In this document: in pieces, positions 14,256 through 37,843 of the stretch
Layout: the number at the start of each line of letters is the position of its first letter
Numbering within the stretch: the stretch's first letter is position 1
Position numbers and translations under genes: made by a program
NCBI GenBank assembly: GCA_900470095.1
Contig: UBZM01000023.1
Location: forward strand, 124,001 to 188,000
From: Hyphomicrobiales bacterium
GTDB taxonomy: Bacteria > Pseudomonadota > Alphaproteobacteria > Rhizobiales > Beijerinckiaceae
Length of the DNA stretch: 64,000 nt
Direction of reading: 5' to 3'
The notes under the pieces: model-generated
Seen by the model: the letters and a program-made list of their open reading frames with translations, nothing else
The model's database searches: none
Told to the model about the DNA's origin: nothing

Positions 14256-14452
14256 GGGCCGTCGCTTCTAGCGCCCATTTTCTGTGCAGGACAGGGTCAG
14301 GCACGCTGGGCCTGCCCGCGCTCGGCGCGTGAGCGTGTGGGAGCGGCCCGCTGCGCGTTTTCGCGATCCGGCCCCTGCGCAAACGTCGCTACCGGCATTC
14401 GGCCATGGCGGCCATCATCACCGACAAGAAGAAGACAGAGGAACCGTTAGGG

Positions 14453-16060: not shown

Positions 16061-16094
16061 CGGCCTGTGGCCGGCCTTTTGGGAGAGTTGGCGA

Positions 16095-17324
16095 ATGAGC
16101 TCGAACCTGCGGATCGACGGACCAAGACTGGTCTCGAGGCTCGAAGCCCTGTCGAAGATCGGCGCGACTCCGGAAGGCGGTTGCCGGCGGCTCGCGCTCT
16201 CCGACGAGGACAAGCAGGGGCGTGACTGGCTCGTCGGGCAGATGCAGGCGCTCGGGCTCGATGTGAAGATCGACGCGATCGGCAACGTCGTCGGCATCCT
16301 GAAGGGGCGGGAGGAGGGACCCGCCGTCATCCTGGGCTCCCATATCGACACGGTGGGCACCGGCGGGCGCTTCGATGGCGCGCTCGGCGTCATCGCCGGC
16401 CTCGAGGTGTTGGCGGCGCTGCGCGATGCAGGGCTGCAGCCGAAGCGCGACATGGCGGTGATCGCCTTCACCAATGAAGAGGGCGCCCGTTTCCATCCCG
16501 ATATGCTCGGCTCCTATGTCTGGGCCGGCGGCATGAGCGTGGAAGCGGCCCATGCCGAGAAGGATGCTGAGGAGGCGGTGCTCGGCACCGAATTGAAGCG
16601 GATCGGTTATCACGGGCCGGAGCGGCCAGGTTTCCTCAAGGCGCATTCCTATCTCGAACTCCATATCGAGCAGGGGCCGGTGCTCGAAGGCGAGGGCGGC
16701 GGGCTCGGCGCTGTCACCGGCATCCAGGCTATTACCTGGCTTGAGCTGACGCTGAAGGGCCGCCCAAGCCATGCCGGTACGACGCCGATGGCCTATCGCA
16801 GGGATCCCGGGTTGGCGGCTGCGCGAATCAACCTCTTCGCCAACGAGCTGACGGGCAAGATTCCGGGCCAGCTTGCCAATTCCGGCGTCATCCGCGTCGA
16901 GCCCGGCAACGTCAATGTGGTGCCGGAAAGTGTGGTCATGTCGCTCGACCTGCGCAATCCCAAGGACGCGCTCCTGACTGAGGCGGAGGCCGCCGTCCGG
17001 ACGTTTTGCAAGGAGCTCTCCGAGCGGGACGGCATCCAGATCAGCTTCCGCGATCTCGCCCGCTTTCCGGCGGTCGAATTCGCATCGGAGCTGATCTACG
17101 GCGTGGAGATGAGCGCAGCCGAACTCGGCCTGCCGATCCGCCGGATGATCTCGGGCGCGGGACACGACGCCCAGATGATGTCGCGCATCTGCCCGACGGC
17201 GATGATCTTCATCCCCTCGATCGGCGGTCTCTCGCATAACCCGGCGGAGTTCAGCACCGACGAGGACATGGTCGCCGGCGCCAATGTCTTGCTGAGTGCC
17301 GCCTGGCGCGCGGCGAATAACTGA
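16095..17324 (+). CDS. M20-family N-carbamoyl-L-amino acid / allantoate amidohydrolase
   Basis: A 409-residue zinc-dependent hydrolase of the HyuC/AllC group (M20/M28 fold). Metal and catalytic residues: His83 and Asp85 in GSHIDTV, Asp94 in GGRFDGALGV, and Glu128-Glu129 in FTNEEGARF. The dimerisation domain lies around residues 210-320. Members cleave N-carbamoyl-L-amino acids, beta-ureidopropionate or allantoate, releasing CO2 and ammonia. The exact substrate is undetermined. ATG 16095 has a GGGAGA site upstream; the open frame upstream runs into repeat B1. It lies between two amidases in the same orientation. Confidence 0.88.
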   Translation: MSSNLRIDGPRLVSRLEALSKIGATPEGGCRRLALSDEDKQGRDWLVGQMQALGLDVKIDAIGNVVGILKGREEGPAVILGSHIDTVGTGGRFDGALGVIAGLEVLAALRDAGLQPKRDMAVIAFTNEEGARFHPDMLGSYVWAGGMSVEAAHAEKDAEEAVLGTELKRIGYHGPERPGFLKAHSYLELHIEQGPVLEGEGGGLGAVTGIQAITWLELTLKGRPSHAGTTPMAYRRDPGLAAARINLFANELTGKIPGQLANSGVIRVEPGNVNVVPESVVMSLDLRNPKDALLTEAEAAVRTFCKELSERDGIQISFRDLARFPAVEFASELIYGVEMSAAELGLPIRRMISGAGHDAQMMSRICPTAMIFIPSIGGLSHNPAEFSTDEDMVAGANVLLSAAWRAANN

Positions 17325-17392
17325 TCAAGCGCGGCGCGCCGCGAAAGACACCTGCTCCCAGCCCTGGTCCTTCCTCCCCACGAGAGATGCCG

Positions 17393-18805
17393 ATGACCGC
17401 AATCGCTTCCCTGTCTGCTGTCGCGCTGAGCAAGCTCTACGCTGGGCGCAGCCTCTCGCCAGTCGAGGTCGCCAAGGACGCGCTCGACCGCATCGAGCGT
17501 TTCGAGCCCGACATCAACGCCTTCGTCGTGCGTGATGCCGAGGTCACGCTCGCCATGGCCGAGGCCTCGCAGGCACGCTGGCTCAAGGGTGCTCCGCTTG
17601 GTCCGCTCGACGGCGTGCCGGTGACGATCAAGGACAATATCGGCGTGAGGGGCTGGCCGATGCGCCGCGGTTCCGCGCTGGCCTCCGGCGCTCCCTGGCC
17701 GGAGGACGCTCCGGCGACGGCGCGACTGCGTGAGGCAGGGACGGTCTTCCTCGGCAAGACGACGATGCCGGAATATGGCTGGAAAGGTGTCGGCGACTCG
17801 CCGTTCTCCGGCATCACCCGGAATCCCTGGGATATCCGGACCGGGCCGGGCGGCTCCTCCTCCGGCGCGGCCTCCTGCGCCGCGCTCAATCTCGGCTGCA
17901 TCCATATCGGAACCGACGGTGCCGGATCGGTCCGAATCCCGGCGGCCTTCACCGGTGTCGTCGGCTTGAAGCCGACCTTTGGCCGCGTGCCGGCCTATCC
18001 CATTTCGACCATGGGTTTCCTCGCCCATCTCGGCCCGCTGACCCGCACGGTCGCCGATACGGCGCTCGCCATGAATGCGATCGGTCGGCCCGATAGCCGG
18101 GACATGACCGCGATAATCGAGCCCCCGCCGGATTACGTCGCCGGCCTTGCCGGTGGCGCGAAGGGCCTGCGCATCGCCTGGTCGCCGCGCCTTGGCGGCA
18201 ATCATCTTGTCGACCCCGAGATCGCAGCGCTCGCCGCGGCGGCCGCGCTTGCGTTTCGCGAACTCGGCGCGACGGTGGAGGAGGTCGATCCTGGATTCGA
18301 CGATCCGCTCGAGACGCTGATGACACTCTGGTCGGCTGGGGCTGCGCTGGCCCTGCGTGGAGCGGGACCAGAGAAGCGGGCGCAAATGGACCCCGGTCTC
18401 GTTGCCGTTGCAGAGGCCGGCGAGCAGATTCCAGGCTCGACCTATGTCGATGCCCTGCTCAATCAGCGCAACGCGCTTGCCCATCATATGGCGCAGTTCC
18501 ACGAGCGCTTCGATCTGCTGCTGACGCCGACTTTGCCCCTGCCGGCCTTCGAAGTCGGACGCAATGCCCCCGGCCACGGCGGATATGGCGAGGACTGGAC
18601 GCGCTGGACCCCCTTCACGTACCCCTTCAACATCACCCAGGCACCGGCCATCTCCGTGCCCTGCGGCCTGACATCGGCCGGGTTGCCGGCTGGACTGCAG
18701 ATCGTCGGGCCGTTCGGCCGCGATGCGCTGGTTCTGCGTGCGGCGGCAGCGTTTGAAGCGTTGCAGCCCTTCGCGCGTGTCGACGCGCCCGTCAGAATAG
18801 CCTGA
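17393..18805 (+). CDS. Amidase-signature hydrolase 2
   Basis: A 470-residue second amidase. Lys80 (VPVTIKDN), the Ser-rich PGGSSSGAA loop around residues 152-160 and Ser179 (GTDGAGSVRIPA) form the expected Ser-cisSer-Lys triad. It is only distantly similar to amidase 1, so it is not a recent duplication. The second ATG (17393) is taken since GAGAG is seven bases upstream; the first at 17387 is too close to it. It follows the M20 hydrolase by 68 bases and probably shares its transcript. Likely role: ammonia release from an amide in the same catabolic set. Confidence 0.85.
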   Translation: MTAIASLSAVALSKLYAGRSLSPVEVAKDALDRIERFEPDINAFVVRDAEVTLAMAEASQARWLKGAPLGPLDGVPVTIKDNIGVRGWPMRRGSALASGAPWPEDAPATARLREAGTVFLGKTTMPEYGWKGVGDSPFSGITRNPWDIRTGPGGSSSGAASCAALNLGCIHIGTDGAGSVRIPAAFTGVVGLKPTFGRVPAYPISTMGFLAHLGPLTRTVADTALAMNAIGRPDSRDMTAIIEPPPDYVAGLAGGAKGLRIAWSPRLGGNHLVDPEIAALAAAAALAFRELGATVEEVDPGFDDPLETLMTLWSAGAALALRGAGPEKRAQMDPGLVAVAEAGEQIPGSTYVDALLNQRNALAHHMAQFHERFDLLLTPTLPLPAFEVGRNAPGHGGYGEDWTRWTPFTYPFNITQAPAISVPCGLTSAGLPAGLQIVGPFGRDALVLRAAAAFEALQPFARVDAPVRIA

Positions 18806-18823: not shown

Positions 18824-19792
18824 TCAGGGCCTGGGTTCGGTCAGCCCCAGCAGATTGCCTTGCGCCACCCGTTCCCGGGTTGCCGGGCTGAGCTGGCGCA
18901 GGAAGGACTGCACGCTCTCGAATTTCATCCGCTCGCTCTCCAGCGAGCGATGGCTTGCGTCGGTTCCGATGATGAAGCGGCCGGGCATCGTCTCGATGAG
19001 CTCAATCCATTCCGGCCAGACACTCCTGCCGTCCTGGAGAATCGTGTAGTCGGGAGAGCGCGGGTGCCTTGGCCAGGTTCGCGCGCTCAGCTCGTAGGTG
19101 AGGTTGGGGTGCCGTTCGAGCATCCTGCGGGCCAGGAATAGCGGCGTGTAGCCGCCGTGGGCCCAGATCATGTTCACATCGGGAAAGGCCTCGAGCAGCG
19201 CTGCCAGTTCGCGCATCCGTGTCGATTCGACATGGACCAGGACAGGCACGCGGTATTTGCGCGCCAGGGCCATGATCCCGCTCATCATCGGGCCCGCCGG
19301 ATCGTAGTCCGCCTCGGGAAACCCGGGCGACGGAAAATGCACTGCCGATATCTCGCCGATACCCTTGAACTGGCCGGTGGCTAGGAGACCGTCGAGCTCC
19401 TCGAGCAGCGCCAGGTCCTGATCCTCCCATGCCCTTCGATGAGCCCGGCGCTCCGGAGAAATCGAGGCAAAGCCGATGAACAGGTCGGGACGGCGCTTGA
19501 CGGCATCGGCAATCGACCCGTTGTCGCCGTTGCGCCCCCAGAACACGACGGCACGCTTCGCCCCGTAGTGCCGCATCAGTTCGATCTGCATGGCCTCGTC
19601 GTTGAGATGGACATGCGCATCGACGAACGGCACCGTTTCGAGACTTGGTGCGGTGCTTTCCGGAGCGGCCGAGTTCTTCACCCGCTTCAGAACACGGGGC
19701 TGATCCTGACCCGATACGCTGGCGCCGAACGATAGCGCCAATGCGCAGCCTAGAACCAATATCCCCACTGCCAAGCGCATGGACCTGCCCAA
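18824..19792 (-). CDS. Exported amidohydrolase-family (COG2159-like) hydrolase
   Basis: A 322-residue TIM-barrel protein with an N-terminal signal peptide (LAVGILVLGCALALSFGASVSGQ, cleavage near residue 28). The metal-binding start VDAHVHL, a middle His strand (VPVLVHVE), MIWAHGGYTP and the late Asp in FIIGTDAS identify the amidohydrolase-2 superfamily. These are decarboxylases or hydrolases; a periplasmic location is unusual and would allow processing of substrates before import. It is convergent with amidase 2 (18-base gap) and divergent from the opp-type operon. Confidence 0.75.
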   Translation of the reverse strand: MGRSMRLAVGILVLGCALALSFGASVSGQDQPRVLKRVKNSAAPESTAPSLETVPFVDAHVHLNDEAMQIELMRHYGAKRAVVFWGRNGDNGSIADAVKRRPDLFIGFASISPERRAHRRAWEDQDLALLEELDGLLATGQFKGIGEISAVHFPSPGFPEADYDPAGPMMSGIMALARKYRVPVLVHVESTRMRELAALLEAFPDVNMIWAHGGYTPLFLARRMLERHPNLTYELSARTWPRHPRSPDYTILQDGRSVWPEWIELIETMPGRFIIGTDASHRSLESERMKFESVQSFLRQLSPATRERVAQGNLLGLTEPRP

Positions 19793-20181
19793 AAAACCCG
19801 CGTCAACGCCCGAATGCCTAGCAGAACTCTGCGGGGCGACAGAAGGGGGCGCGTCTGGCGCGCGGCGCGTGACGAGGCCTGAGCGGGCGCTTCGTCTTCG
19901 CCGGTCAGCGAGGACCTTTCGCGTGCTGGGAAAACGCTGTGATTAGGCCAGTAGCGCGCCGATCAAATCGATTTAGCTGACGTTGCGCAATTTTCTGCGG
20001 ATTTATGTTCGATTGGCGCGGGCCCATGGCGTTGGGGGCCAGCCGGTACCGTTTGGCACGGACTCTGCAAGCCTTCCAGCCGCGGATTTCGACCGGCGCG
20101 GCGTGTTGTCAGGGTGATCTTTCTCGCCCACACTCGCCTCAAGGTCGCCCGTCAGAGGTAGCCGTTTCAGGGGAGAGAGTC
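19793..20181. other. Divergent intergenic region with promoter elements
   Basis: 389 bases without a credible gene. The left part is GC-rich; 19960-20015 is relatively AT-rich and includes the perfect palindrome AAATCGATTT (19965-19974). A sigma-54-type promoter lies at 20053-20070. I could not find a convincing NtrC palindrome upstream of it. Confidence 0.6.
20053..20070 (+). promoter_or_regulatory. Sigma-54 (-24/-12) promoter for the opp/D-carbamoylase operon
   Basis: The sequence TTGGCACGGACTCTGCAA matches the RpoN consensus TTGGCACG-N4-TTGCA at all but one position, with GG and GC at the correct spacing (GG at 20055-20056, GC at 20067-20068). The transcript would start near 20080, giving a leader of about 100 bases before the SBP start codon. 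Confidence 0.75.
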
Positions 20182-21780
20182 ATGGATCGCAGGACATTCT
20201 TGAAAGCTGCCACTGGTGCCGGCGCTCTGGCCGCCACCGGGGGGCTTTCCATTCCGGCCTTGTCGCAAGGAGCGGCGGCCAAGACCCTGCGCTTCGTGCC
20301 GCAGGCCAATCTCGCGAATTTCGACCCCATCTGGGGCACGCAATATGTCGTCCGCAATGCCGCTGCGCTGGTCTGGGATACGCTCTACGGCATCGACGAC
20401 AAGTTCCAGCCCCAGCGCCAGATGGTCGAAAGCGAGGAGGTCTCCTCCGACGGCCTGACCTGGACCTTCAAGCTCCGCCCCGGCCTCAAATTCCATGACG
20501 GCGAGCCGGTGCTTGCCAAGGACGTGGTGCAGAGCCTCGTGCGTTGGTCGGCGCGCGACCCGATGGGCCTGATGCTCCGCGCTATCCAGAACGAACTGGT
20601 TGCCGTCGACGACCGGAGCTGGAAATGGTCGCTGAAGCAGCCCTTCCCGAAGATGCTGCTGGCGTTGGCGAAAAACAACGCACCCTGCTCTTTCATCATG
20701 CCGGAGCGTATCGCCAAGACCGATCCGTTCCAGCAGATCACCGAATATGTCGGCTCCGGGCCGATGAAGTTCCTGCGCAATGAGTGGGTGCCGGGCGCCA
20801 AGGCGGTCTTCGAGAAATTCGCCGATTACGTGCCGCGCTCCGAGCAGGCGAACTGGCTCGCCGGCGGCAAGAAGATGCTGGTCGATCGCATCGAGTGGGT
20901 GATCATGCCCGACCCGGCGACCGCTGCCGCTGCGCTGCAGAACGGCGAGATCGACTGGTGGGAGACGCCGCTCGCCGATCTCGTGCCGGTGCTCAAGGCC
21001 AACAAGAATATCAATGTCGATATCGGCGACCCGCTCGGCAATATCGGCGCCTTCCGCATGAACCACCTGCACCCGCCCTTCAACAATCTGAAGGTGCGCC
21101 AGGCGGTGCTGACTGCTATGAACCAGGAAGACTACATGCGTGCGCTTGTCGGCGAGGACGACAAGCTCTGGAAGCCGCTTCCTGGGTTCTTCACGCCGGG
21201 CACCCCGCTCTATACCGAGCAGGGCGGCGACATGCTCAAGATGCGCAATATTGAGGCTGCCAAGAAGCTGCTGGCCGAGTCCGGCTACAAGGGCGAGCCG
21301 GTGGTTTGCGTCGTGGCGCAGGACATGTCCGCCACCAAGGCGATGGGCGACGTCACGGCCGATCTGCTCAAGCGCATCGGCATGAATGTCGATTTCGTCG
21401 CGACAGACTGGGGCACGGTCGGTTCCCGCCGCGCCCAGAAGACCGGACCGGGCCAGGGGGGCTGGAGCATGTTCCACACCTGGCATGCCGGCGCCGACTG
21501 CATCAATCCGGCCTCGTATACGGCGATCCGCGCGAATGCCGACAAGGCCTGGTTCGGCTGGCCGGACGTGCCTGCCGTCGAGACCGAGGTGACGAACTGG
21601 TTCAACGCCAAGGATCTCGCCGAGGAGAAGGCGGCCATGGGCCGGCTCAACCAGGCGGCGGTTCAGAATGTCGTCTACGCGCCGACCGGCTTCTATCTCG
21701 GCTACCAGGCCTGGCGGAAGAACGTCTCGGGGGTCGTCAGCGGGCCGTTGCCATTCTTCTGGGGCGTCTCCAAGGCCTGA
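20182..21780 (+). CDS. Opp/Dpp-type ABC transporter substrate-binding protein 1
   Basis: A 532-residue SBP_bac_5 family protein. The twin-arginine signal MDRRTFLKAATG and a hydrophobic stretch to about residue 35 point to Tat export; the GGGAGAGAG ribosome-binding site supports ATG 20182. Family members bind peptides, opines, nickel or glutathione in the periplasm; this one is in the group 'FDPIWGTQYVVRNAAALVWD', common in Bradyrhizobium-like oligopeptide systems. First gene of a seven-gene operon with two permeases and three hydrolytic enzymes, so the ligand is likely an N-acylated or N-carbamoylated amino compound (inference). Confidence 0.9.
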   Translation: MDRRTFLKAATGAGALAATGGLSIPALSQGAAAKTLRFVPQANLANFDPIWGTQYVVRNAAALVWDTLYGIDDKFQPQRQMVESEEVSSDGLTWTFKLRPGLKFHDGEPVLAKDVVQSLVRWSARDPMGLMLRAIQNELVAVDDRSWKWSLKQPFPKMLLALAKNNAPCSFIMPERIAKTDPFQQITEYVGSGPMKFLRNEWVPGAKAVFEKFADYVPRSEQANWLAGGKKMLVDRIEWVIMPDPATAAAALQNGEIDWWETPLADLVPVLKANKNINVDIGDPLGNIGAFRMNHLHPPFNNLKVRQAVLTAMNQEDYMRALVGEDDKLWKPLPGFFTPGTPLYTEQGGDMLKMRNIEAAKKLLAESGYKGEPVVCVVAQDMSATKAMGDVTADLLKRIGMNVDFVATDWGTVGSRRAQKTGPGQGGWSMFHTWHAGADCINPASYTAIRANADKAWFGWPDVPAVETEVTNWFNAKDLAEEKAAMGRLNQAAVQNVVYAPTGFYLGYQAWRKNVSGVVSGPLPFFWGVSKA

Positions 21781-21808
21781 TTTGCAACGATAGGGATACA
21801 GCGCCGCG

Positions 21809-22750
21809 ATGTTGGCTTTCATCGTCAGACGCATCATCACGACCATCCCGGTGATGGCTTTCGTGGCGCTGTTCGTCTTTTCTCTCCTCTACATAGCGCC
21901 GGGGGACCCGGCGGCGGTCATCGCAGGTGATCAGGCGACGCCCGCGGATGTCGAGAAGATCAGGCTGAGCCTCGGGCTCGACCGCCCCTACCTGATACGG
22001 TTCGGCGAATGGCTGTTCAGGGTGCTCCAGGGTGATCTGGGCACGTCGATCTTCACCTCGCTGCCGGTGACGCAGCTCATCTCCCAGCGCATCGAGCCGA
22101 CCGTCTCGCTGATGGTTCTGACGCTGATCTTTGCGGTTGTCATCGCGGTGCCGATGGGAGTGATCGCGGCCTGGAAGGCAGGCACCTGGGTCGACAAATC
22201 AGCGATGGCCTTTGCCGTGCTCGGCTTTTCCATCCCGGTCTTCGTCGTCGGCTATCTCCTGGCCTATGTCTTTGCGCTGAAACTCGACTGGCTCCCGGTG
22301 CAGGGCTACACGCCGCTCTCGGAAGGGCTGTGGCCCTGGTTCCGGAACCTCATCCTGCCCTCTGTCACGCTCGGCCTCGTCTATATCGCGCTCATCGCCC
22401 GCATCACCCGCGCGACGATGCTCGAGGTGCTGCAGCAGGACTACATCCGCACGGCGCGTTCCAAGGGGCTCGGCCAGCGCAGCGTCCTGTTCCTGCATGC
22501 GCTGAAGAATGCCGCGATCCCGATCGTGACGATCATCGGCATCGGCATCGCTCTGCTGATCGGTGGTGCCGTGGTGACCGAGAGCGTCTTCGCCATTCCC
22601 GGGCTGGGCCGGCTGACGGTCGATGCCATCCTGCGGCGCGACTATCCCGTGATCCAGGGCGTCGTCCTGATGTTCAGCTTCGTCTACGTGCTGGTGAACC
22701 TCATCATCGATCTGGTCTACACGCTTCTCGATCCGAGGATACGCTATTGA
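21809..22750 (+). CDS. ABC transporter permease 1B (DppB type)
   Basis: A 313-residue inner-membrane permease with six hydrophobic segments. The N-terminus (FIVRRIITTIPVMAFVALFVF) and the EAA-loop region (QQDYIRTARSKGLGQRSVLFLHALKNA) are diagnostic of the DppB/OppB family. It pairs with the DppC-like product to form the translocation pore. It follows the SBP after 28 bases, and its stop overlaps the TTG start of the next permease. Confidence 0.93.
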   Translation: MLAFIVRRIITTIPVMAFVALFVFSLLYIAPGDPAAVIAGDQATPADVEKIRLSLGLDRPYLIRFGEWLFRVLQGDLGTSIFTSLPVTQLISQRIEPTVSLMVLTLIFAVVIAVPMGVIAAWKAGTWVDKSAMAFAVLGFSIPVFVVGYLLAYVFALKLDWLPVQGYTPLSEGLWPWFRNLILPSVTLGLVYIALIARITRATMLEVLQQDYIRTARSKGLGQRSVLFLHALKNAAIPIVTIIGIGIALLIGGAVVTESVFAIPGLGRLTVDAILRRDYPVIQGVVLMFSFVYVLVNLIIDLVYTLLDPRIRY

Positions 22751-23655
22751 CGACGCGCTCCGAGAGCCCTGCCGCCGTTGCGGCTCCCGCTCTGGCCGGG
22801 ATCGCGCCAGAGAGATCACCCCTGAGAAACCTGCTGCGTTTCATGCGCCGGCACCCCTCGGTCGCGATCGGCGGCGGCCTGTTGCTGCTCATGATCCTCA
22901 TCGGCATCCTTGCGCCGCTGCTCTGGACCGTCGATCCGACCGCGATCGCGCCGGCGAGGCGCACCAGGATGCCCTCGGAGCAGTACTGGTTCGGCACCGA
23001 CATGCTCGGGCGCGACATCTATTCCCGCGTCATCTACGGCGCGCGGGTTTCGCTGATCGTCGGCTTCACCGTCGCCATCCTGTCGTCCCTGGTCGGGTTG
23101 GCGATCGGCCTCTTCGCAGGCTTCGTACGCCGGGCTGACGGCATTGTCATGCGTGGCATCGACGGCATGATGTCGATCCCGCCGATCCTGCTGGCGATCG
23201 CGCTGATGGCTCTGACGCGCGGCTCGGTTCAGAACGTCATCATCGCCATCACCATCGCCGAAATCCCGCGCGTCGCCCGCCTGGTGCGCGGCGTGGTGCT
23301 CAGCCTGCGCGAGCAGCCCTATGTCGAGGCGGCGGTGGCCGCCGGCGCACGCGCACCGCGCATCATCATGCGCCACATCCTTCCGAACACCATCGCGCCG
23401 ATGACCGTGCAGGCGACCTATATCTGCGCCAGCGCGATGATCGTCGAGGCGATCCTCTCCTTCATCGGCGCCGGCATTCCGCCGGCAACGCCGTCCTGGG
23501 GCAATATCATGGCCGAGGGCAGGGCGCTCTGGCAGGTCCGGCCGCATATCGTGCTGTTCCCGGCGGTCTTTCTGTCGATCACGGTGCTTGCCGTGAACCT
23601 GCTCGGGGACGGCCTGCGCGACTCGCTCGATCCCCGCTTGGCGAAGAGCCTCTGA
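22747..23655 (+). CDS. ABC transporter permease 1C (DppC type), TTG start
   Basis: A 302-residue permease with an N-terminal cytoplasmic segment, one membrane helix and then the DppC core (YWFGTDMLGRDIYSRVIYGARVSL; EAA loop EQPYVEAAVAAGARAPRIIMRHILPN). I place the start at TTG 22747, which overlaps the preceding TGA (TTGA), because the first in-frame ATG (22843) would delete most of the N-terminal helix. No oppD or oppF ATPase follows; the next gene is an enzyme. ATPases must be supplied from elsewhere. Confidence 0.88.
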   Translation: MTTRSESPAAVAAPALAGIAPERSPLRNLLRFMRRHPSVAIGGGLLLLMILIGILAPLLWTVDPTAIAPARRTRMPSEQYWFGTDMLGRDIYSRVIYGARVSLIVGFTVAILSSLVGLAIGLFAGFVRRADGIVMRGIDGMMSIPPILLAIALMALTRGSVQNVIIAITIAEIPRVARLVRGVVLSLREQPYVEAAVAAGARAPRIIMRHILPNTIAPMTVQATYICASAMIVEAILSFIGAGIPPATPSWGNIMAEGRALWQVRPHIVLFPAVFLSITVLAVNLLGDGLRDSLDPRLAKSL

Positions 23656-23707
23656 GGGGAACCGCATCCACCATGCCGGCTGGCTCTGCCGCAGCGTCCG
23701 CCGGCCT

Positions 23708-23729
23708 CGCACCCCGAATTCCGGGTGCG
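23708..23729. other. Intra-operon hairpin between the dppC-like and carbamoylase genes
   Basis: CGCACCC pairs exactly with GGGTGCG around a GAATTC core, within a 169-base gap of an otherwise tightly packed operon. No U-run follows, so it is more likely an RNA-processing or stabilising hairpin that sets different levels for transport and enzyme genes than a terminator. Confidence 0.5.
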
Positions 23730-23824
23730 GTCTGCGGAAATCCGATGGCGACCATGCGGCCTGACCGGCTTTCGCCTGCCCTGCATGATCGCGATGCTGG
23801 CGGGTGTGCTGAGGAGGAAATAAG

Positions 23825-24760
23825 GTGAGTCGAATTCTGACGGTGGCCGCAGCCCAGCTCGGCCCCATCCATCGGGATGAAAGCCGCGCTTCGGCCGTCG
23901 CCCGCATGATCGCCTTGATGCGCCAGGCCAAGGGGCATGGTTGCGATCTCGTCGTCTATCCCGAAGCTGCCCTGACAGCCTTCTTTCCGCATTGGTGGAT
24001 GGATGACGAGGACGAGATCGATTCCTATTTCGAGAGTGCCATGCCCTCGAACGAGACGGCGCCGCTCTTCGAGGAGGCAGCCCGTCTCGGTATCGGTTTC
24101 CATCTCGGCTATCCCGAGCTCGCCTTCGAGGACGGACGCAAGCGGCGCTTCAACACCGCGGTCCTGGTCGACAAGAGCGGCTCTGTCGTCGGCAAATATC
24201 GCAAGATCCATCTGCCCGGACATCCCGAGCACCGGCCGGGTGCTCCCTTCCAGAATCTTGAGAAGCGCTATTTCGAGACCGGCAATCTCGGCTGGCCTGT
24301 CTGGCGGACCATGGACGCCAATATCGGTATGATGATCTGCAACGACCGGCGCTGGCCCGAGAGCTATCGCAGCATGGGTCTGCAGGATGTCGAATTGATC
24401 GTGCTCGGCTACAACACACCCAAGCATAACCCCCCGGCGCCAGACCACGACCGCCTCGGCAATTTCCACAATCAGCTCGTCATGCAGGCCGGCGCCTACC
24501 AGAACGCCACCTGGGTCGTTGGCGTCGCCAAGGCGGGGCTCGAGGCCGGCGTCGACCAGATCGGCGGATCCTGCATCATCGCGCCGACCGGCGAGGTCGT
24601 GGCTCAGGCCGTCACCGAGGGTGACGAACTTGTCGTCGCCCGTTGCGACCTCGATCTCGGCAAGAGCTACAAGGCATCCACATTCAATTTCGCCCGCCAC
24701 CGCGAGCCGGAGCAATACCGGATGATCGTGGAGCGCAAGGGCGCTATCTCACCGCTCTGA
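23825..24760 (+). CDS. N-carbamoyl-D-amino acid amidohydrolase (D-carbamoylase)
   Basis: A 311-residue nitrilase-superfamily enzyme. Glu47 (YPEAAL), Lys127 (YRKIHLPG) and Cys172 (MMICNDRRWPES) fall at the same residue numbers as the catalytic triad of the Agrobacterium D-carbamoylase. CNDRRWPE is characteristic of that subfamily. It converts N-carbamoyl-D-amino acids to D-amino acids, CO2 and ammonia. The start is GTG 23825, with an AGGAGGAAATAAG ribosome-binding region. No hydantoinase is adjacent, so the carbamoyl compound is probably imported as such or made by another enzyme. The product could feed the PLP enzyme at 26528. Confidence 0.9.
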   Translation: MSRILTVAAAQLGPIHRDESRASAVARMIALMRQAKGHGCDLVVYPEAALTAFFPHWWMDDEDEIDSYFESAMPSNETAPLFEEAARLGIGFHLGYPELAFEDGRKRRFNTAVLVDKSGSVVGKYRKIHLPGHPEHRPGAPFQNLEKRYFETGNLGWPVWRTMDANIGMMICNDRRWPESYRSMGLQDVELIVLGYNTPKHNPPAPDHDRLGNFHNQLVMQAGAYQNATWVVGVAKAGLEAGVDQIGGSCIIAPTGEVVAQAVTEGDELVVARCDLDLGKSYKASTFNFARHREPEQYRMIVERKGAISPL

Positions 24761-24782
24761 GTTTGCCGTCAAAGGACCAGCC

Positions 24783-25952
24783 ATGAACCATGATCTCATC
24801 CTGAAAGGCGGGCGGGTCATCGATCCCTCGCAGAAGCATGACGGCATTCTCGATGTCGCCTTCACCAACGGCAAGGTCTCGGGCTTCGGCAAGGACCTGA
24901 AAGGCGGCGCCGATACTGAAGTTCGCGATGTCTCGGGCTATATCGTTTCGCCCGGCCTGATCGACCTCCACACCCATGTCTATTGGGGCGGCACCTCGCT
25001 CGGCATCGATGCCGACGAATTCTGCCGCATGTCCGGCGTCACCACTTCGGTCGACACCGGCAGCGCCGGACCGGGCAACTGGGCCGGTTTCCGCAAGCAT
25101 GTGATCGAGCAGAGCCAGGCCCGCATCCTGGCCTATCTTCACGTCTCGCATGCCGGCATCTACGGCTTCGATCATCGCGTCATGGTCGGCGAGAGCGGCG
25201 ACCTGCGCATGATGAACCCGATCGATTGCGTCGAAGTCGCCGACGCCAATCGCGACTATATCGTCGGCATCAAGGTTCGCGTCGGCCTGCATGCCTCGGG
25301 CACGTCCGGGACCGTGCCCCTGAACATCGCGTTGCAGGTCGCCAACGAGGTCGGCATGCCGCTGATGTGCCATATCGACCATCCGCCGCCATCCTACGAG
25401 GAAGTCATCGGCATGCTGCGGCCGGGCGACGTACTGACCCACGCCTTCCGGCCCTTCCCGAATGCGCCCGCGACGGCGCAGGGCACGGTGAAGCCTGAGG
25501 TGCTCGCTGCCCGCAAGCGTGGTGTCATCTTCGATATCGGCCATGGCAAGGGCTCGTTCTCGTTCAAGACGACGCGCGCCATGCTTGCCAATGGTTTCGA
25601 GCCGGATGTGATCTCGTCGGACGTTCACAAACTCTGCATCGACGGCCCGGCCTATGACCAGGTCACCACCATGTCGAAGTTCCTCTGCATGGGCATGAGC
25701 CTGAACAACGTCATCGCCGCCTCGACCGTGAATGCCGCCATGGCGCTGAAGCGCCCCGAATACGGCTCGCTCAAGGTCGGTTCGCTGGGCGACGCCACCA
25801 TCCTCACCGTCAAGGAAGGCAAGTTCGACTATGTCGACGTTGTCGGAGAGCACCTGATCGGCGACAAGAAGTTCGTCTCCGAGGGGGTGGTGCTGAAGGG
25901 CAAGTGGTGGCACCCGAAGCGCTCGAACAAGTTCAAGAAGGTGGCGGCCTAG
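24783..25952 (+). CDS. Amidohydrolase/deacetylase-family metallohydrolase (COG3964)
   Basis: A 389-residue amidohydrolase. Metal ligands: His63 and His65 in IDLHTHV; Lys164 (VGIKVRVG), the probable carboxylated lysine; His in MCHIDHPP; and Asp/His in the GHGKGSFSF and ISSDVHKL region. The family includes Atu3266-like esterases/deacetylases and proteins annotated 'dihydroorotase-like'; described members deacetylate N-acetyl or O-acetyl substrates with R/D configuration, which matches the D-specific enzyme upstream. It is 22 bases behind the carbamoylase in the same operon. The true substrate is unknown. Confidence 0.85.
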   Translation: MNHDLILKGGRVIDPSQKHDGILDVAFTNGKVSGFGKDLKGGADTEVRDVSGYIVSPGLIDLHTHVYWGGTSLGIDADEFCRMSGVTTSVDTGSAGPGNWAGFRKHVIEQSQARILAYLHVSHAGIYGFDHRVMVGESGDLRMMNPIDCVEVADANRDYIVGIKVRVGLHASGTSGTVPLNIALQVANEVGMPLMCHIDHPPPSYEEVIGMLRPGDVLTHAFRPFPNAPATAQGTVKPEVLAARKRGVIFDIGHGKGSFSFKTTRAMLANGFEPDVISSDVHKLCIDGPAYDQVTTMSKFLCMGMSLNNVIAASTVNAAMALKRPEYGSLKVGSLGDATILTVKEGKFDYVDVVGEHLIGDKKFVSEGVVLKGKWWHPKRSNKFKKVAA

Positions 25953-25973
25953 GTCAGGTCGTGCTGCCGACAA

Positions 25974-25992
25974 GCCCGGGCTTGACCCGGGC
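25974..25992. repeat. Inverted repeat GCCCGGG/CCCGGGC
   Basis: Two 7-base arms separated by CTTGA, in the 120-base gap before ridA. The motif is a type often seen between genes of high-GC alphaproteobacteria. It may act as a partial terminator or mRNA stabiliser inside the operon. Confidence 0.45.
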
Positions 25993-26072
25993 ATCTCACC
26001 TCGGAGTCTCACGGGCGCGCGTTGTGTGCCGCCCGCGGAACGCCGCGCCACAATAACGATAGAGGAAACACC

Positions 26073-26531
26073 ATGTCTGCCGAAGCCAGGCTAAAGGAAC
26101 TCGGGCTGACACTGCCCAACGTTGCGACACCGGTCGCCAACTATGTCCGCTTCAAGCGGGCTGGCGATATCGTCTATCTCTCGGGCCAGGGGCCGCGTCG
26201 CGCCGACGGCAGCTATCCGACCGGCAAGGTCGGTGCCAATGTCACGGTCGAAGAGGCTTATGAGCACGCCAAGCAGACCGGGCTTGGCCTGCTTGCCGCC
26301 ATGCAGGAAGCGGCCGGCTCGCTCGACAAGGTCGAGGTCATCAAGCTGCTCGGCATGGTCAACGCGGTGCCGGATTTCGCGGAACAGCCCAAGGTGATCA
26401 ACGGCTGCTCGGACCTGTTCGTCGCCGTTCTCGGCGAGAACGGCCGTCACGCCCGCTCGGCCGTGGGCATGGGCTCGCTGCCCAACAACATGACCGTCGA
26501 GATCGAAGTCATCATCCGGGTGCTGCCATGA
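26073..26531 (+). CDS. RidA-family protein (YjgF/YER057c)
   Basis: A 152-residue RidA-superfamily protein starting MSAEARLKELG with an AGAGGAAA ribosome-binding site. Family segments include YVRFKRAGDIVYLSGQGPRR and the C-terminal GSLPNNMTVEIEVI. RidA proteins hydrolyse reactive enamine/imine intermediates released by PLP enzymes; this subgroup lacks the short canonical length (about 130), so it belongs to a Rid subfamily whose activity should not be assumed. The stop overlaps the start of the PLP enzyme by four bases (ATGA), implying coupled synthesis and a joint reaction. Confidence 0.85.
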   Translation: MSAEARLKELGLTLPNVATPVANYVRFKRAGDIVYLSGQGPRRADGSYPTGKVGANVTVEEAYEHAKQTGLGLLAAMQEAAGSLDKVEVIKLLGMVNAVPDFAEQPKVINGCSDLFVAVLGENGRHARSAVGMGSLPNNMTVEIEVIIRVLP

Positions 26532-27604
26532 CTGCGCTTGCCGAGGAAATCGCCCGCGTCTACGGCACGCCGGCCGTCGTCATCGATCTCGACAAGGTCG
26601 AGGCCAATATCGCGCGCCTCCAGGCCGCCTGCGATGCCGCCGGCGTCGCCAACCGCCCGCATATCAAGACGCATAAATCGCCCGAGCTCGCGCGCCTGCA
26701 GCGCGAGGCTGGCGCCCGCGGCATCACCTGCCAGAAGCTCGGCGAGGCCGAGGTCATGGCCGATGGCGGGCTCGATGACATCATGATCAGCTACAATATC
26801 CTGGGCGAGGAGAAGCTTGGGCGCCTCGGCGCGCTGCAGCGCCGCGTGCGGATGATCGTTGCAGCCGACAATCCAGTCACCATCGCCGGCCTGCCGACGG
26901 CCGCCGAGATCGCCGGGCGCGACCTCGAAGTCGTGGTCGAATGCGACACCGGTCGCCAGCGCGCCGGAGTCGAGACGCCGGGCGAGGCGGTCGAGCTTGC
27001 GAAGCTGATCGCCGGTTCCAAAGGCCTGCGCTTTGCGGGCTTCCTGATGTACCCGCCGGAGGATGGCTGGGACCGGACGCAAGCGTTCCTCGACACGGCC
27101 AATGCGGGCCTGCGCGATGCGGGGCTCGAGGCCGGCATCGTCTCGACCGGTGGCTCGCCCAATATTCCGAATATCGGCAAGCTCAAGGGCGCGACCGAGC
27201 ACCGCGCCGGCACGTCGATCTTCAACGACCGCATGCAGGTTGCGGCGGGCGTCGCCAGTCTCGAGGACTGCGCGCTCACGGTCTATGCGACGGTGGTGAG
27301 CCGTGCCGGCCCGGAGCGCGGCATCCTCGATTCAGGGTCGAAGACGCTGACGAGCGATACCGGCGGCCTGGAGGGCCACGGCTATATTCTGGAGTATCCG
27401 TCAGCCAAGATCGCCAAATTCGCCGAGGAGCATGGCTTCCTCGACCTTGCGGCCTCGAATGAGCGGCCGAAGGTCGGCGAGGTCGTCCGGATCGTGCCGA
27501 ACCATGTCTGCGTCGTCGTCAACATGGTCGACAGGCTGATCACAGTGCGCGGCGACAAGCTGATCGGCGAACTGCCGGTCGCGGCGCGCGGCAGGCTGAC
27601 CTGA
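26528..27604 (+). CDS. D-threonine aldolase / D-serine dehydratase-like PLP enzyme (fold type III)
   Basis: A 358-residue enzyme of the alanine-racemase-like N-domain plus DSD1/D-TA C-domain family. Lys47 in RPHIKTHK is the PLP lysine. The C-terminal metal site is suggested by IVPNHVCVVVN, where the NHxC motif contributes His and Cys ligands. Family activities are aldol cleavage of D-3-hydroxy amino acids to glycine plus aldehyde, or dehydration of D-serine / hydroxyaspartate. Translational coupling with a RidA protein favours a reaction releasing an enamine, that is a dehydratase (inference). Last gene of the operon starting at 20182. Confidence 0.85.
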   Translation: MTALAEEIARVYGTPAVVIDLDKVEANIARLQAACDAAGVANRPHIKTHKSPELARLQREAGARGITCQKLGEAEVMADGGLDDIMISYNILGEEKLGRLGALQRRVRMIVAADNPVTIAGLPTAAEIAGRDLEVVVECDTGRQRAGVETPGEAVELAKLIAGSKGLRFAGFLMYPPEDGWDRTQAFLDTANAGLRDAGLEAGIVSTGGSPNIPNIGKLKGATEHRAGTSIFNDRMQVAAGVASLEDCALTVYATVVSRAGPERGILDSGSKTLTSDTGGLEGHGYILEYPSAKIAKFAEEHGFLDLAASNERPKVGEVVRIVPNHVCVVVNMVDRLITVRGDKLIGELPVAARGRLT

Positions 27605-27610
27605 TACGCC

Positions 27611-27709
27611 TGGATCATCGGACCGGATCTCGTATCCGGTCCGATGATCTGATTGTCTGCGTCTCTATCGGCCCGAAAACCGCAATCCGCTTTTCGGGCC
27701 GATACTTGC
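27611..27709 (-). repeat. Intergenic two-hairpin repeat, subfamily A, copy A3
   Basis: A 99-base copy between the PLP enzyme and ompW, in the same orientation as A2. GATCATCGGACCGGAT pairs with ATCCGGTCCGATGATC, and the second hairpin has CGGCCCGAAAA/TTTTCGGGCCG. The right terminus is the most diverged (GCAAGTATCGG on the minus strand). No stop codon is supplied here: the TGA of the upstream gene lies seven bases before it. Confidence 0.85.
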
Positions 27710-28671: not shown

Positions 28672-29400
28672 TCAGCTCTCGGGGTGCCTCGCATTCCAGG
28701 CCGCAGCATACTCGCTGCACAGTCGATCGAGCTCGGTGCGGTCCGTGATCCCCGCCGGTCGGGCACGAGACGGCGAGGCGGCCTGGTAGGGCACGGAGCG
28801 CTGGTGCGCGATGCGCCAGAGCCGCCGCAATTCGGCCAGGGGGTCTGCGTGATCGTCGACGCGGATGTCGAAGCTCGGAAAGGCATCGGTCGACCAGATC
28901 CGGATGGCACAGGACTGGCGCCCCCGCTTGTCGCCGCCAGCCCGCTCTCCGGCCTCGAGCGCAACCAGCAAGCGCTCGTCGAAATCAAGCGCCGAGGCCG
29001 CGATATAGGCCTTCAGTGTTTCCTCGATCACCTGCGGCCCGGCGAGCATGTTACCGGCGACCGAGACCTGCGGGCCTTCGACCGAGCCGCACCAGTCGAC
29101 GCAGGCCGAACCGGTATGAGCGGCGATCTTGCCGTCCCGGTCGATGACATGCAGCTGGCGATGATTGCGCCCCTCATCGGCCGCGGTGAGGTTGGCGACG
29201 ATCTCGGCGGCCGGGCGGCCTTCGAGCAGAAGCCGCAGGCCATCGATGCCATAGAGCGGGTTGAGGAAGGCTTGTGTGGCAAGCGCGCCCGTGCGCGCCG
29301 CGCCCTGCGGCACGCGCGAGCCGACGGCGAAGGCGCAGGTGGAAACCGCGACGCCATAGGCGCCTGTCGCCGCATCGCGGGCGACGATAGACCAGGTCAT
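28672..29400 (-). CDS. DUF1028 Ntn-hydrolase-like protein
   Basis: A 242-residue protein whose first ~200 residues match DUF1028: MTWSIVARD...YGVAVSTCAFAVGSRVPQG...GALATQAFLNP...GLRLLLEG. The fold is predicted to be Ntn-hydrolase-like, but activity is unproven. A C-terminal extension (about 195-242) is unique-looking and helical. It is the last gene of the second opp-type operon, 13 bases after the gamma-glutamyltransferase homologue. DUF1028 genes recur next to GGT-like and peptide-transport genes, suggesting a role in breakdown of gamma-glutamyl or N-acyl compounds (inference). Confidence 0.85.
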   Translation of the reverse strand: MTWSIVARDAATGAYGVAVSTCAFAVGSRVPQGAARTGALATQAFLNPLYGIDGLRLLLEGRPAAEIVANLTAADEGRNHRQLHVIDRDGKIAAHTGSACVDWCGSVEGPQVSVAGNMLAGPQVIEETLKAYIAASALDFDERLLVALEAGERAGGDKRGRQSCAIRIWSTDAFPSFDIRVDDHADPLAELRRLWRIAHQRSVPYQAASPSRARPAGITDRTELDRLCSEYAAAWNARHPES

Positions 29401-29413
29401 GGAGCAATCCCTC

Positions 29414-31213
29414 TCAGCGGCCGGCGGCGTAGGCCTGCATCAGACGTGGCGTCGCCGCGGCACGCAAGAGGCCATTGCTGCTCTTCTCCGCTGCGGTCAG
29501 GCGCCCGACGGTCCAGGCCGGGGCCTTCTCGAGATCGTGGCCACGCCCGACGAGATCGGCGATCGCCGCGGCACCGATGCTCTCCTCGACCGTGAGATGC
29601 CCCGGTCGCGCTTCGCGCGGATAGAAGGTCGAGGGGAAGTGCTGCGTGTGGAACAGCGGCAGGTCGATCGCCTCCTGCAGGTTGAGACCGTGGTGCACCC
29701 GGCGCAGGAACATGCCGAGCTGCCATTGCTCCTGCTGGTCGCCGCCCGGCGTGCCGAAAGCCAGGCGCGGTTCGCCATTCTCGAAGGCCAGTGTCGGCGT
29801 CAGCGTGGTGCGCGGGCGCTTCAGCGGCGCGAGCGAGGCCGGCAGGCCTTCCTCCAGCCAGAATGCCTGCGCGCGTGAGTTCAAGGGGAAGCCGAGCTCG
29901 GGAATCACCGGCGAAGATTGCAGCCAGCCGCCCGATGGCGTGGCGGCGATCATGTTGCCCCATTTGTCGATCACGTCGATATGAACGGTGTCGCCGCGCT
30001 TCGACGATGCGACCATCGAGGCGAGGGTCGGTTCACCGACGGTTGCGCCGCCGGCACCGCTCTGCCCGGCGATGCGGATATTCGCCAGCATCTTGCCGAC
30101 CTGGTCCTCGAAACCGGGGATCATGCCGGGGCGCAGCTCATGCGAGGCCTTGTCGGTGATGAGATTGCGCCGGCCGCGGGCGTAATCCTCCGAGAGCAAC
30201 GTGGCCATCGGCACCTTCACGAAATCCGGATCGCCGTAATAGGCTTCGCGGTCGGCGAAGGCGAGCTTCATCGCCTCGGTGACGTGATGAATGAATTCCG
30301 GGCTGGCCGGTCCCATCGCGGCGATATCGATGCCTTCCAGGATCTTCAGCGTCTGCAGGAAGACCGGGCCCTGGCCCCAGGGTCCGATCTTGAAGACCTC
30401 CCAGCCGTGATAGTTGACGCTCGCGGGTGTCTCGTAGGTGGGCTTCCAGCGCGCCATGTCATCGGCCGTGAGCAGGCCCTTGTGGCGCCGGCCGGAGGAA
30501 TCGATCGCCTCGGTCGTTCGGCAGAATCTGTCCATCGCTTCCGCGACGAAGCCCTTGTACCAGGTGTCGTATGCGGTCTCGAGCTGTTTCTCGCGCGAGC
30601 CGCCGGCGGCTTCCGCCTCCGCGAGAATGCGCTTGTAGGTTTCCGCCGCAGCCTTGTTGCGGAAGAGTTCCTTGCCCTTCGGGACGTTGCCGCCCGGCAG
30701 ATAGATGGCCCCCGAGGTCGGCCACTCCTCGGTGAAGAGATCGGTCAGGGTCCCGATCGTGTCGGAGACGCGCGGGAGCATCGGATGGCCGTTCTCGAAA
30801 TAGCCGATGGCCGGCTCGAGAACCTCACGCAGCGACAGGCGGCCATGGTCGCGCAGCAGCGTCATCCAGCCGCCGAAAGCGCCGGGCACGACCGTCGAGA
30901 GCAGTCCCGAGCCGGGGATCAGGTCGAGGCCGAGTTCCTTGAAGGCCTCGATCGTGGCTGCCTGCGGAGCCGGGCCCTGCGCGCAGATGACTTCGACCTT
31001 CTTCGTCTCGGCCGAATAGAACACGGCTGGCATGTCGCCGGCTGGGCCGACCAGATGCGGCTCGACGACCTGGAGCACGAAGGCTGCGGCGGCACAGGCA
31101 TCGAAGGCGTTGCCGCCCTTTTCCAGCATGGCCATGCCGGAGGCCGTCGCGAGCCAATGCGTCGAGGTGACGACACCAAAGGTGCCGAGGATTTCAGGGC
31201 GGGTCGTGAACAT
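29414..31213 (-). CDS. Gamma-glutamyltransferase-family protein (Ntn hydrolase)
   Basis: A 599-residue protein of the GGT/cephalosporin-acylase family. The autoprocessing nucleophile is probably Thr409 in KRGDTVHIDVIDKWGN, aligned with the TTH..VVD motif of classical GGT. The large-subunit start STHWLATASGMAMLEKGGNAFDA and GTPGGDQQ near the C-terminus are also typical. No signal peptide is visible, so it would act in the cytoplasm, unlike the periplasmic E. coli enzyme. ATG 31213 is 20 bases behind the permease. It likely hydrolyses a gamma-glutamyl or related amide imported by the adjacent transporter. Confidence 0.88.
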   Translation of the reverse strand: MFTTRPEILGTFGVVTSTHWLATASGMAMLEKGGNAFDACAAAAFVLQVVEPHLVGPAGDMPAVFYSAETKKVEVICAQGPAPQAATIEAFKELGLDLIPGSGLLSTVVPGAFGGWMTLLRDHGRLSLREVLEPAIGYFENGHPMLPRVSDTIGTLTDLFTEEWPTSGAIYLPGGNVPKGKELFRNKAAAETYKRILAEAEAAGGSREKQLETAYDTWYKGFVAEAMDRFCRTTEAIDSSGRRHKGLLTADDMARWKPTYETPASVNYHGWEVFKIGPWGQGPVFLQTLKILEGIDIAAMGPASPEFIHHVTEAMKLAFADREAYYGDPDFVKVPMATLLSEDYARGRRNLITDKASHELRPGMIPGFEDQVGKMLANIRIAGQSGAGGATVGEPTLASMVASSKRGDTVHIDVIDKWGNMIAATPSGGWLQSSPVIPELGFPLNSRAQAFWLEEGLPASLAPLKRPRTTLTPTLAFENGEPRLAFGTPGGDQQEQWQLGMFLRRVHHGLNLQEAIDLPLFHTQHFPSTFYPREARPGHLTVEESIGAAAIADLVGRGHDLEKAPAWTVGRLTAAEKSSNGLLRAAATPRLMQAYAAGR

Positions 31214-31233
31214 GGTGATATCCCTAGGCTTGC

Positions 31234-32124
31234 TTAGTGTTCTTTGGGGTCGAGCGCGTCCCGCAGGCCGTCGCCCAGCAGGTTGAAGCCGAGAACGGCG
31301 AAGAAGATGGCGATCCCGGGCGCCACCGACATCCACGGCGCCTGCTCCATGAAATTCTTGGCGACGTTGAGCATCTGACCCCAGGACGGAGCGGGAGGTT
31401 GCTGGCCGAGGCCGAGGAAGGAGAGGGCCGCTTCCAGGATGATCGCCTGCGCCATGAACAGGGTGGATTGCACCACGATCGGCGAAAGCGTGTTCGGCAG
31501 GACGTGAAGGAACAGGATCCGCATGTCGCGGGCACCGATCGCGCGCGTTCCCTCGATGAAATCCTCGGCCTTGATGCTGAGCACTTGGCCTCGGACCAGC
31601 CGGATGAAGATCGGAACGGCCGAGAGGCCGATCGCGATCATGGCGTTGGTCAAGGAGGGGCCGAGGATCGCCGCAAACGCGATCGCGACGATCAGGAAGG
31701 GGCAGGCCAGCATCGCTTCCGTGACGCGCGAAATCGCGATGTCGATCCAGCCACCGTACCAGCCCGCCAGCAGTCCGAAGGGTACGCCGACCGCCAGCGC
31801 GATCGAGACCGAGAAGATGCCGGCCAGCAGCGAGGTTTGCGCTCCGTAGAACAGGCGGGAGAACTGGTCGCGCCCGAGTTCATCGGTGCCGAACCAATAC
31901 AGTGCCGAAGGCGGCTTGCGAATGGCGAGGAAGTTCGACTTCAACGGGTCTGCTAGCGGCAACAGGGGCGCCAGGATGGCCATCAACACGAAGATCAGCA
32001 CGAGCGCGCCGCCGATCTGGGCGGAGCGGTTGTGCAGCAGTTTCGTCCAGGCGCGCGGGCTTCGCGCCGGCAATGGTTCCAACGAGCTGGTCGGGGACGG
32101 GCGGTCCAATGCGATATTCGCCAT
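31234..32124 (-). CDS. ABC transporter permease 2C (DppC type)
   Basis: A 296-residue permease starting MANIALDRP, overlapping the upstream permease stop by four bases. It has the DppC hallmarks: YWFGTDELGRDQFSRLFYGAQTSL, EAA loop EDFIEGTRAIGARDMRILFLHVLPN, and the C-terminal FNLLGDGLRDALDPK. It works with permease 2B and SBP 2. No ATPase gene is in the operon; an enzyme gene follows instead, the same arrangement as in the first opp module. Confidence 0.92.
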   Translation of the reverse strand: MANIALDRPSPTSSLEPLPARSPRAWTKLLHNRSAQIGGALVLIFVLMAILAPLLPLADPLKSNFLAIRKPPSALYWFGTDELGRDQFSRLFYGAQTSLLAGIFSVSIALAVGVPFGLLAGWYGGWIDIAISRVTEAMLACPFLIVAIAFAAILGPSLTNAMIAIGLSAVPIFIRLVRGQVLSIKAEDFIEGTRAIGARDMRILFLHVLPNTLSPIVVQSTLFMAQAIILEAALSFLGLGQQPPAPSWGQMLNVAKNFMEQAPWMSVAPGIAIFFAVLGFNLLGDGLRDALDPKEH

Positions 32125-33068: not shown

Positions 33069-33156
33069 GGCCGCCACCCAAGCCCGGCCGCCATTCCGGG
33101 CGACACAAGGGGCGCCCGGAGCTGACGAGAGTGTTGGCTTCGAAGGAAGGCGGTCA

Positions 33157-36415: not shown

Positions 36416-36488
36416 GCCAGGACAGGCCTTTCATTTCGGCGCAGCAAAACTCGTATAGGATCGCATCACGAGGGCAGCGGAGACGGGG

Positions 36489-37823: not shown

Positions 37824-37843
37824 ACGAAAACTCGAGACCTGTC

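Follow-up and report, generated by a model that had tools for sequence, protein, structure and literature searches.

A conserved sigma-54-type promoter and a predicted operon for D-amino acid derivatives in Bosea

Known modules and layout of the operon

The closest published module that we found for the operon described here is the ong cluster of Pseudoalteromonas, in which OngB is a deacetylase, OngC a fold-type III pyridoxal phosphate (PLP) deaminase active on D-serine and D-threonine, and OngD a RidA protein; its authors liken the pathway to the catabolism of D-amino acids (PMC9537276). Our locus lies in a 64,000-nucleotide stretch of DNA (the window) on contig C38 of a 7.17 Mb genome, for which, together with its same-genus relatives, we use the genus label Bosea. 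It comprises an operon at 20182-27604 on the + strand, encoding an ABC transporter solute-binding protein (SBP), two permeases, a D-carbamoylase, an amidohydrolase, a Rid protein and a fold-type III PLP enzyme, and a candidate sigma-54 (RpoN) promoter lies in front of it. Like this operon, the ong cluster combines a deacylase, a fold-type III PLP enzyme (there a D-amino acid deaminase) and a RidA protein, but it differs in its SSS transporter, its OngR repressor and an oxidised amino sugar as substrate, and the available text mentions no D-carbamoylase for it (PMC9537276). OngB is further described, in the part of the source at hand, as D-aminoacylase-like with a Cys/His/His metal site, unlike the window amidohydrolase (PMC12017989).

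RpoN motifs are also reported from hydantoin metabolism: according to the accessible portion of PMC5979394, Paraburkholderia has one in front of a hydantoinase operon, and among the RpoN targets of Bradyrhizobium is a gene for hydantoin utilisation. Hydantoinase/D-carbamoylase operons share with the window a D-carbamoylase-type enzyme and, in the RpoN-linked hydantoinase operon, the RpoN motif (PMC5979394). In alpha-, beta- and gamma-proteobacteria, a sigma-54 regulon survey reports, in its available part, enrichment of ABC transporter COGs and of hydantoin racemase (PMC12316311), so a sigma-54 link to genes of this sort is by itself nothing new; the same part does not describe the window operon. 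What distinguishes the latter from the hydantoinase operons is that no hydantoinase was recognised in it and that it has an Opp transporter, a Rid protein and a dehydratase-like enzyme instead. The ABC transporter COGs of the survey presumably include Opp/Dpp parts.

At the level of single proteins, 3wqc and the chicken enzyme 3anu share fold and HxC metal motif with the window PLP enzyme; they differ from it in being ~30% identical and in that a YPPEDGW segment, conserved in the consensus, belongs to the window enzyme's own subfamily. The structure 2ogj, deposited as a dihydroorotase, is the best structure match of the window amidohydrolase and has the same PRK09237/cog3964 family and metal-site residues. 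A first-pass annotation, made from the letters of the window, had not recognised this gene order as a described pathway, and we found no description of the operon among the papers listed by searches of the open-access literature (subscription papers were outside their scope). The operon is a variation on known modules, namely the ong cluster and the RpoN-linked hydantoinase operons, and not a new kind. Our best overall explanation, to which we give a probability of about 0.55, is that it would combine RpoN-driven import with deacylation, beta-elimination and Rid hydrolysis. The features of the operon are as follows.

20054-20069, + strand: sigma-54 -24/-12 element TGGCACGGACTCTGCA, by motif; boxes invariant in 29/29 Bosea sequences
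20105-20129, + strand: leader element GTTGTCA (20105-20111), then hairpin GGGTGA-TCTTTC-TCGCCC; conserved in Bosea
20182-21780, + strand: SBP, family 5 (SBP_bac_5), by family match
21809-22750, + strand: permease, OppB type, by family match
22747-23655, + strand: permease, OppC type, by family match
23825-24760, + strand: N-carbamoyl-D-amino acid amidohydrolase type (D-carbamoylase), by PDB match 8i99 and E47/K127/C172
24783-25952, + strand: amidohydrolase/deacetylase family, PRK09237 type, by NCBIfam and residues H63 H65 K164 H197 H220 D280
26073-26531, + strand: Rid-family protein, by family match
26528-27604, + strand: fold-type III PLP enzyme with dehydratase-type metal motif H326-x-C328, by motif and alignments
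27612-27650, no strand assigned: hairpin (17-bp stem) following the last gene, folding z -6.1, lacking a T run; the likely end of the operon

The promoter and its conservation

The first-pass annotation had placed a sigma-54 motif with exact GG-N10-GC spacing 112 bases before the SBP gene, and both coordinates and spacing are as claimed: TTGGCACGGACTCTGCAA at 20053-20070 reads TGGCAC-N6-TGCA, and 112 bases separate the site (20054-20069) from the SBP ATG (20182). Compared with TGGCACG-N4-TTGCW, which we take to be the sigma-54 consensus and used for scoring, the site has one mismatch, a C in place of the first T of TTGC. An equal or higher score is reached by 0.42% of random 400-base stretches, using a hand-made position weight matrix and stretches taken from related loci with their promoters included. 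The genome has one match for rpoN, and a scan for sigma-70 promoters gave no match near 20053-20182.

To follow the element among relatives, 61 genomes were searched (the window genome, 36 of the same genus and 24 others of the order). A D-carbamoylase at at least 86% identity is present in 33 of the 37 Bosea genomes, the window genome included, and 32 other same-genus loci were fetched around this gene. All 10 positions of the TGGCAC and TGCA boxes are invariant across the 29 SBP upstream sequences compared in Bosea (the window and 28 others; 29 of 29), and the site lies 127-134 bases before the SBP ATG. None of the flanking columns is invariant (0/60 upstream and 0/36 downstream; 0/96 in total) in an ungapped alignment fixed at the site, a procedure that makes the flanks look less alike than they are, and the 29 sequences form 22 clusters below 80% identity over the 60 bases upstream. 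Outside this set stand two loci in which the SBP start lies beyond the fetched stretch (L064, at a contig start, and L084), one cut by a contig end (L086) and one without an SBP gene (L073, genome G012). Longer upstream stretches fetched from the L084 genome (G004) and from one additional genome (G337) both contain the site.

The element also recurs in other genera. A strict pattern, picked after the sites had been seen, was applied to 72 loci (2,067,210 bases, both strands counted) and gave 31 matches, of which 30 fall directly in front of the SBP gene. In two genomes from a different family (g41; loci L119 and L139) the orthologous SBP gene is preceded by TGGCACGATCTCTGCA/T. The site of G118, which belongs to a different genus of the family of Bosea, is TGGCATACCCCTTGCA. 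In Bradyrhizobium the site stands 94-147 bases before the SBP gene in all seven loci that hold this gene; these differ in order, with the amidohydrolase followed by SBP, OppB-type and OppC-type permeases, OppD and OppF, and in the remaining Bradyrhizobium loci considered this SBP is not near the amidohydrolase. Across 17 non-Bosea SBP upstream regions the best site scores at least 14.8 in 11, a value reached by 0.6% of random 400-base stretches; four Methylobacterium regions have a weaker best site of 11.5 (2.1% of such stretches).

The rival explanation that the motif is a chance match draws on the window genome as a whole, where TGGCACG-N4-TTGC with up to two mismatches shows no excess (2873 matches against 2737 for the reversed control), and the strict pattern TGGCACRNNNNBTGCW, with 7 matches against 15, is not above chance. 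Because the boxes are invariant across Bosea amid variable flanks and the site is found in other genera, we hold the motif to be real despite the missing genome-wide excess, and consider a chance match very improbable. From its sequence conservation, the sigma-54 promoter very likely drives the operon, and in this the first-pass proposal is borne out.

Three of the seven strict sites in the genome lie 59-112 bases before a correctly oriented gene, namely the window SBP gene, a second family-5 SBP gene on C51 and a flagellar hook-type gene on C65; of the other four, two are within called genes and two are 400-640 bases from the next gene. The C51 site (L244, near 130301-130316, - strand) is ~77 bases before its SBP gene, which has a divergent neighbour, and the C65 site (L245, near 65561-65576, - strand) is ~59 bases before the hook-type gene, in a genome that encodes FlbD. 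Hook genes are a classical sigma-54 class, and this site serves as a rough internal control.

A separate observation concerns Bradyrhizobium-type loci, 26 in number including one labelled Frankia. In 16 of them (L182-L202, L225) a GG-N10-GC element ending in TTGCT occurs 63-108 bases before a stand-alone amidohydrolase gene; it is the best-scoring element there but weaker, with single P values of 0.02 to 0.42. Matches before the amidohydrolase in six Bradyrhizobium loci (L198, L200, L204, L205, L206 and L217) were not counted, because in both of those examined (L204 and L205) the match falls within a called gene.

The leader between promoter and SBP gene (20105-20181) is strongly conserved in Bosea and consists of GTTGTCA, then a small hairpin rich in T, then a conserved stretch that reaches the ribosome site. 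GTTGTCA lies 35-37 nucleotides past the -12 GC in 29/29 Bosea sequences; the inspected leaders from Bradyrhizobium, g41 and Methylobacterium did not show it. The hairpin folds in most of the 29 sequences (L066 and L085 fold otherwise), and its right arm hardly varies. We rejected a structured leader RNA or riboswitch: Rfam returned two sub-threshold eukaryotic matches only, downstream of the leader, RNAalifold found no pair with both sides changed among 18 (no covariance model was built), and single-sequence folding gave z of +0.8 to -1.9 in 8 of the 29 sequences. A reading of the leader as a sigma-70 promoter (TTGTCA-N17/18-CAAACT) was likewise set aside; its -10 is poor and the scan did not list it.

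Which signal would act on the promoter is a separate matter. The first-pass annotation had joined RpoN control to nitrogen starvation, and while the promoter conservation upholds the former, the latter goes beyond it: a search with simple NtrC-type patterns found, upstream of the window operon, a single match, the loose GCGC-N7-GCGC at 19849. Nitrogen control is plausible because of the ammonia-releasing chemistry and the RpoN-linked hydantoinase genes in rhizobia, and on this analysis we would give even odds to NtrC or nitrogen limitation being the signal. A different signal, either the substrate itself or another two-component activator, may instead control the promoter. Consistent with this, ten genes of the genome match sigma-54 activators, seven of them strongly; of these seven, NtrC, NtrX and FlbD pass their NCBIfam cut-offs and the other four have no family assignment; moreover, the NtrC-like match is single and loose. 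On the other side, the operon enzymes would release ammonia, and RpoN targets of such a metabolic kind are often under nitrogen control. We regard a signal other than nitrogen as a possibility somewhat short of an even chance. No activator was recognised beside the operon among the scanned genes of the window (part of its genes) and of its relatives.

Enzymes and proposed pathway

The assignment of the D-carbamoylase, a CN-hydrolase protein, rests on a best PDB match to the solved D-carbamoylase 8i99 (421 bits) and on the Glu/Lys/Cys triad E47, K127 and C172, which is present as the first-pass annotation had stated. Residue 144 (24254-24256) is Asn in 45 of 47 loci at at least 86% identity, some genomes being included twice and two loci being unreadable at this position, whereas in 15 more distant loci it is His in 13 and Gln in 2. 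We take His144 to have a role in D-carbamoylases, though one that need not be defining. By sequence the enzyme is of the D-carbamoylase type, with a putative activity on N-carbamoyl-D-amino acids.

The next gene had been called a deacetylase-type amidohydrolase, and it does pass the PRK09237 NCBIfam cut-off (446.6 against 371 bits) and keeps H63, H65, K164, H197, H220 and D280, which we take to be the metal-site residues. Enzymes of the PRK09237/cog3964 type can deacetylate N-acetyl-D-amino acids. The Rid protein, also named correctly at first pass, is clear.

The PLP enzyme is where we depart from the first-pass annotation, which had described it as D-threonine-aldolase-like. Its best matches by sequence and fold are indeed D-threonine aldolases, and its PLP lysine is K47 by alignment to Lys59 of 4v15. 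However, its metal motif is PNHVC (HxC), whereas the aligned aldolases 4v15, 7dib and 6qkb have HVD or HCD, and HAC is found in 3wqc (D-threo-3-hydroxyaspartate dehydratase), 3anu (D-serine dehydratase) and 3llx. HVC or HIC is present in 88 of 90 loci, the other two not being matched by the pattern. The segment of the base His193 of 4v15 is also without a His in the window enzyme, which has Trp against 4v15 (column placed by manual count in that alignment) and a gap against 7dib and 6qkb. The available part of PMC4401734 gives the aldolase metal site as His and Asp and that of the dehydratase as His and Cys, and states that the base His193 is missing from the dehydratase and from 3llx. These residues make a dehydratase more likely than an aldolase, which would explain the RidA gene, because a dehydratase makes an enamine, the class of compound hydrolysed by Rid proteins.

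Were the enzyme a D-threonine or 3-hydroxy-D-aspartate aldolase, as its top sequence and fold matches would have it, the pathway would yield glycine. This we think unlikely, given HxC rather than HxD and the absent base His, the score of 186 bits against a cut-off of 690 in the equivalog model of BhcC (3-hydroxy-D-aspartate aldolase), and the want of an evident role for Rid.

Taken together with the promoter at 20054-20069, these enzymes suggest a catabolic operon for N-carbamoyl- or N-acyl-D-amino acids that carry a leaving group on the beta carbon, with D-serine, D-threonine, D-3-hydroxyaspartate or 2,3-diaminopropionate types as candidate substrates. Uptake would be through the SBP and the two permeases, powered by ATPases that other Opp systems supply; the D-carbamoylase would take off the carbamoyl group, giving CO2 and NH3, and the amidohydrolase an acyl group; the PLP enzyme would eliminate the beta group to give an enamine, which the Rid protein would hydrolyse to a 2-oxo acid and NH3. 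That the substrates are D-amino acid derivatives is probable from the protein families, and the combination of beta-elimination with Rid hydrolysis is rather favoured.

A diaminopropionate ammonia-lyase family gene occurs in the operon of 4 of the 32 Bosea loci (by NCBIfam assignment for two), where it adjoins the D-carbamoylase gene, and relatives by similarity are found in L094, L130, L174 and L238. This gene could be read in favour of an operon handling 2,3-diaminopropionate or ureido derivatives, in ureide or purine salvage, with the D-carbamoylase removing ureido groups. A carbamoylase-type M20 amidase upstream would suit such a role, and we take a comparable cluster to exist in E. coli. 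The chicken D-serine dehydratase structure was solved with 2,3-diaminopropionate, according to its title. However, the lyase is absent from the window, the window genome has only paralogues of it (best 55% identity, no orthologue being found), and neither lyase nor D-carbamoylase is present in the two g41 operons, so we judge this explanation improbable. As a second enzyme of the beta-elimination kind, the lyase would rather favour beta-elimination of D-amino acid derivatives.

Beside the missing genome-wide excess of the motif, several observations weigh against the proposed pathway and its promoter. L238 has a weak site (10.3, reached by 3.4% of random stretches) and L203 none; the Bosea genome G012 is without a detectable SBP and OppB-type permease; and a convincing NtrC palindrome was not found upstream with simple patterns. 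At position 144 the D-carbamoylase has Asn in place of the His of its best PDB match; the family of the amidohydrolase is a broad one, with the closest solved structures labelled 'dihydroorotase', 'amidase' or 'adenine deaminase'; and both the whole-protein and the fold scores of the PLP enzyme, whose AlphaFold model has a predicted local distance difference test score of 92.6, favour aldolases (Z 41.6 against 38.8). Lastly, because D-carbamoylase, Rid protein and PLP enzyme are each absent from some related operons or loci, they need not share one substrate.

Gene-set variation, neighbouring genes and implications

The first-pass annotation had proposed a search for the same gene order elsewhere, and D-carbamoylase, amidohydrolase, Rid and PLP genes indeed follow one another in 32 of the 32 Bosea loci fetched via the D-carbamoylase. 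Its description of an importer without ATPases holds for the window, where SBP and two permeases are present and an ATPase is absent from the operon, but not for all relatives: Opp ATPases are in the operon in 3 of the 32 Bosea loci and also in L145 and L161. The operon ATPases were probably lost in the window genome, judging from these loci. A search for OppD elsewhere in that genome gave paralogues only, at best 56% identical, with no orthologue (OppF was not searched). The SBP has a weak match to a twin-arginine translocation signal, under the model cut-off.

The full gene set is not universal. The two g41 operons consist of transporter, ATPases, amidohydrolase and PLP gene; they have no D-carbamoylase, and Rid was detected in one. 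The PLP gene has a match in 163 genomes of the order, and in 40 loci fetched around it this gene is the sole query found in 20, while Rid is found too in 19; transporter and amidohydrolase genes are present as well in four (L119, L130, L139 and L145). In G012 (L073 and L157) the enzyme genes are kept, the SBP and OppB-type permease were not found and the OppC-type permease is only partial; no sigma-54 site was found at L157.

The upstream neighbours of the operon are three amidase genes.

14405-15916, + strand: amidase, by family match
16092-17324, + strand: hydantoinase/carbamoylase-family M20 amidase, by family match
17387-18805, + strand: amidase, by family match

Relatives of the second and third lie upstream of the operon in 26 of the 32 Bosea loci as fetched. 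Between the last amidase and the SBP gene is an amidohydrolase gene on the - strand (18824-19792), with a relative at that place in 2 of the 32 Bosea loci, and at 19955-19983, beside the SBP promoter, a short remnant matches, as judged by eye, the 3' end of the relatives' amidase. Downstream, 28672-34818 (- strand) encodes a DUF1028 protein, a gamma-glutamyltransferase and a second Opp transporter for which no ATPase was recognised; DUF1028 and gamma-glutamyltransferase relatives recur downstream of the operon in many Bosea loci. Genes for a 3-oxo-tetronate kinase, malonyl-CoA decarboxylase and malonyl-CoA synthase follow at 35007-39373, and a 3-oxo-tetronate kinase is also near the PLP gene in L142. 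No plasmid record holds 80% of the operon; two records have short matches, 7% each.

D-carbamoylases, which are used to make D-amino acids, would by this proposal gain a testable natural role in a conserved pathway, and a simple reason would be offered for the RidA gene. The PLP subfamily is readily misannotated as D-threonine aldolase. Strains of Bosea or Bradyrhizobium would lend themselves to tests of both promoter and gene set. More tentatively, the operon may represent a widespread, as yet undescribed alphaproteobacterial RpoN pathway that includes a new HxC subfamily of fold-type III enzymes and would give these bacteria a nitrogen source in soil and around roots.

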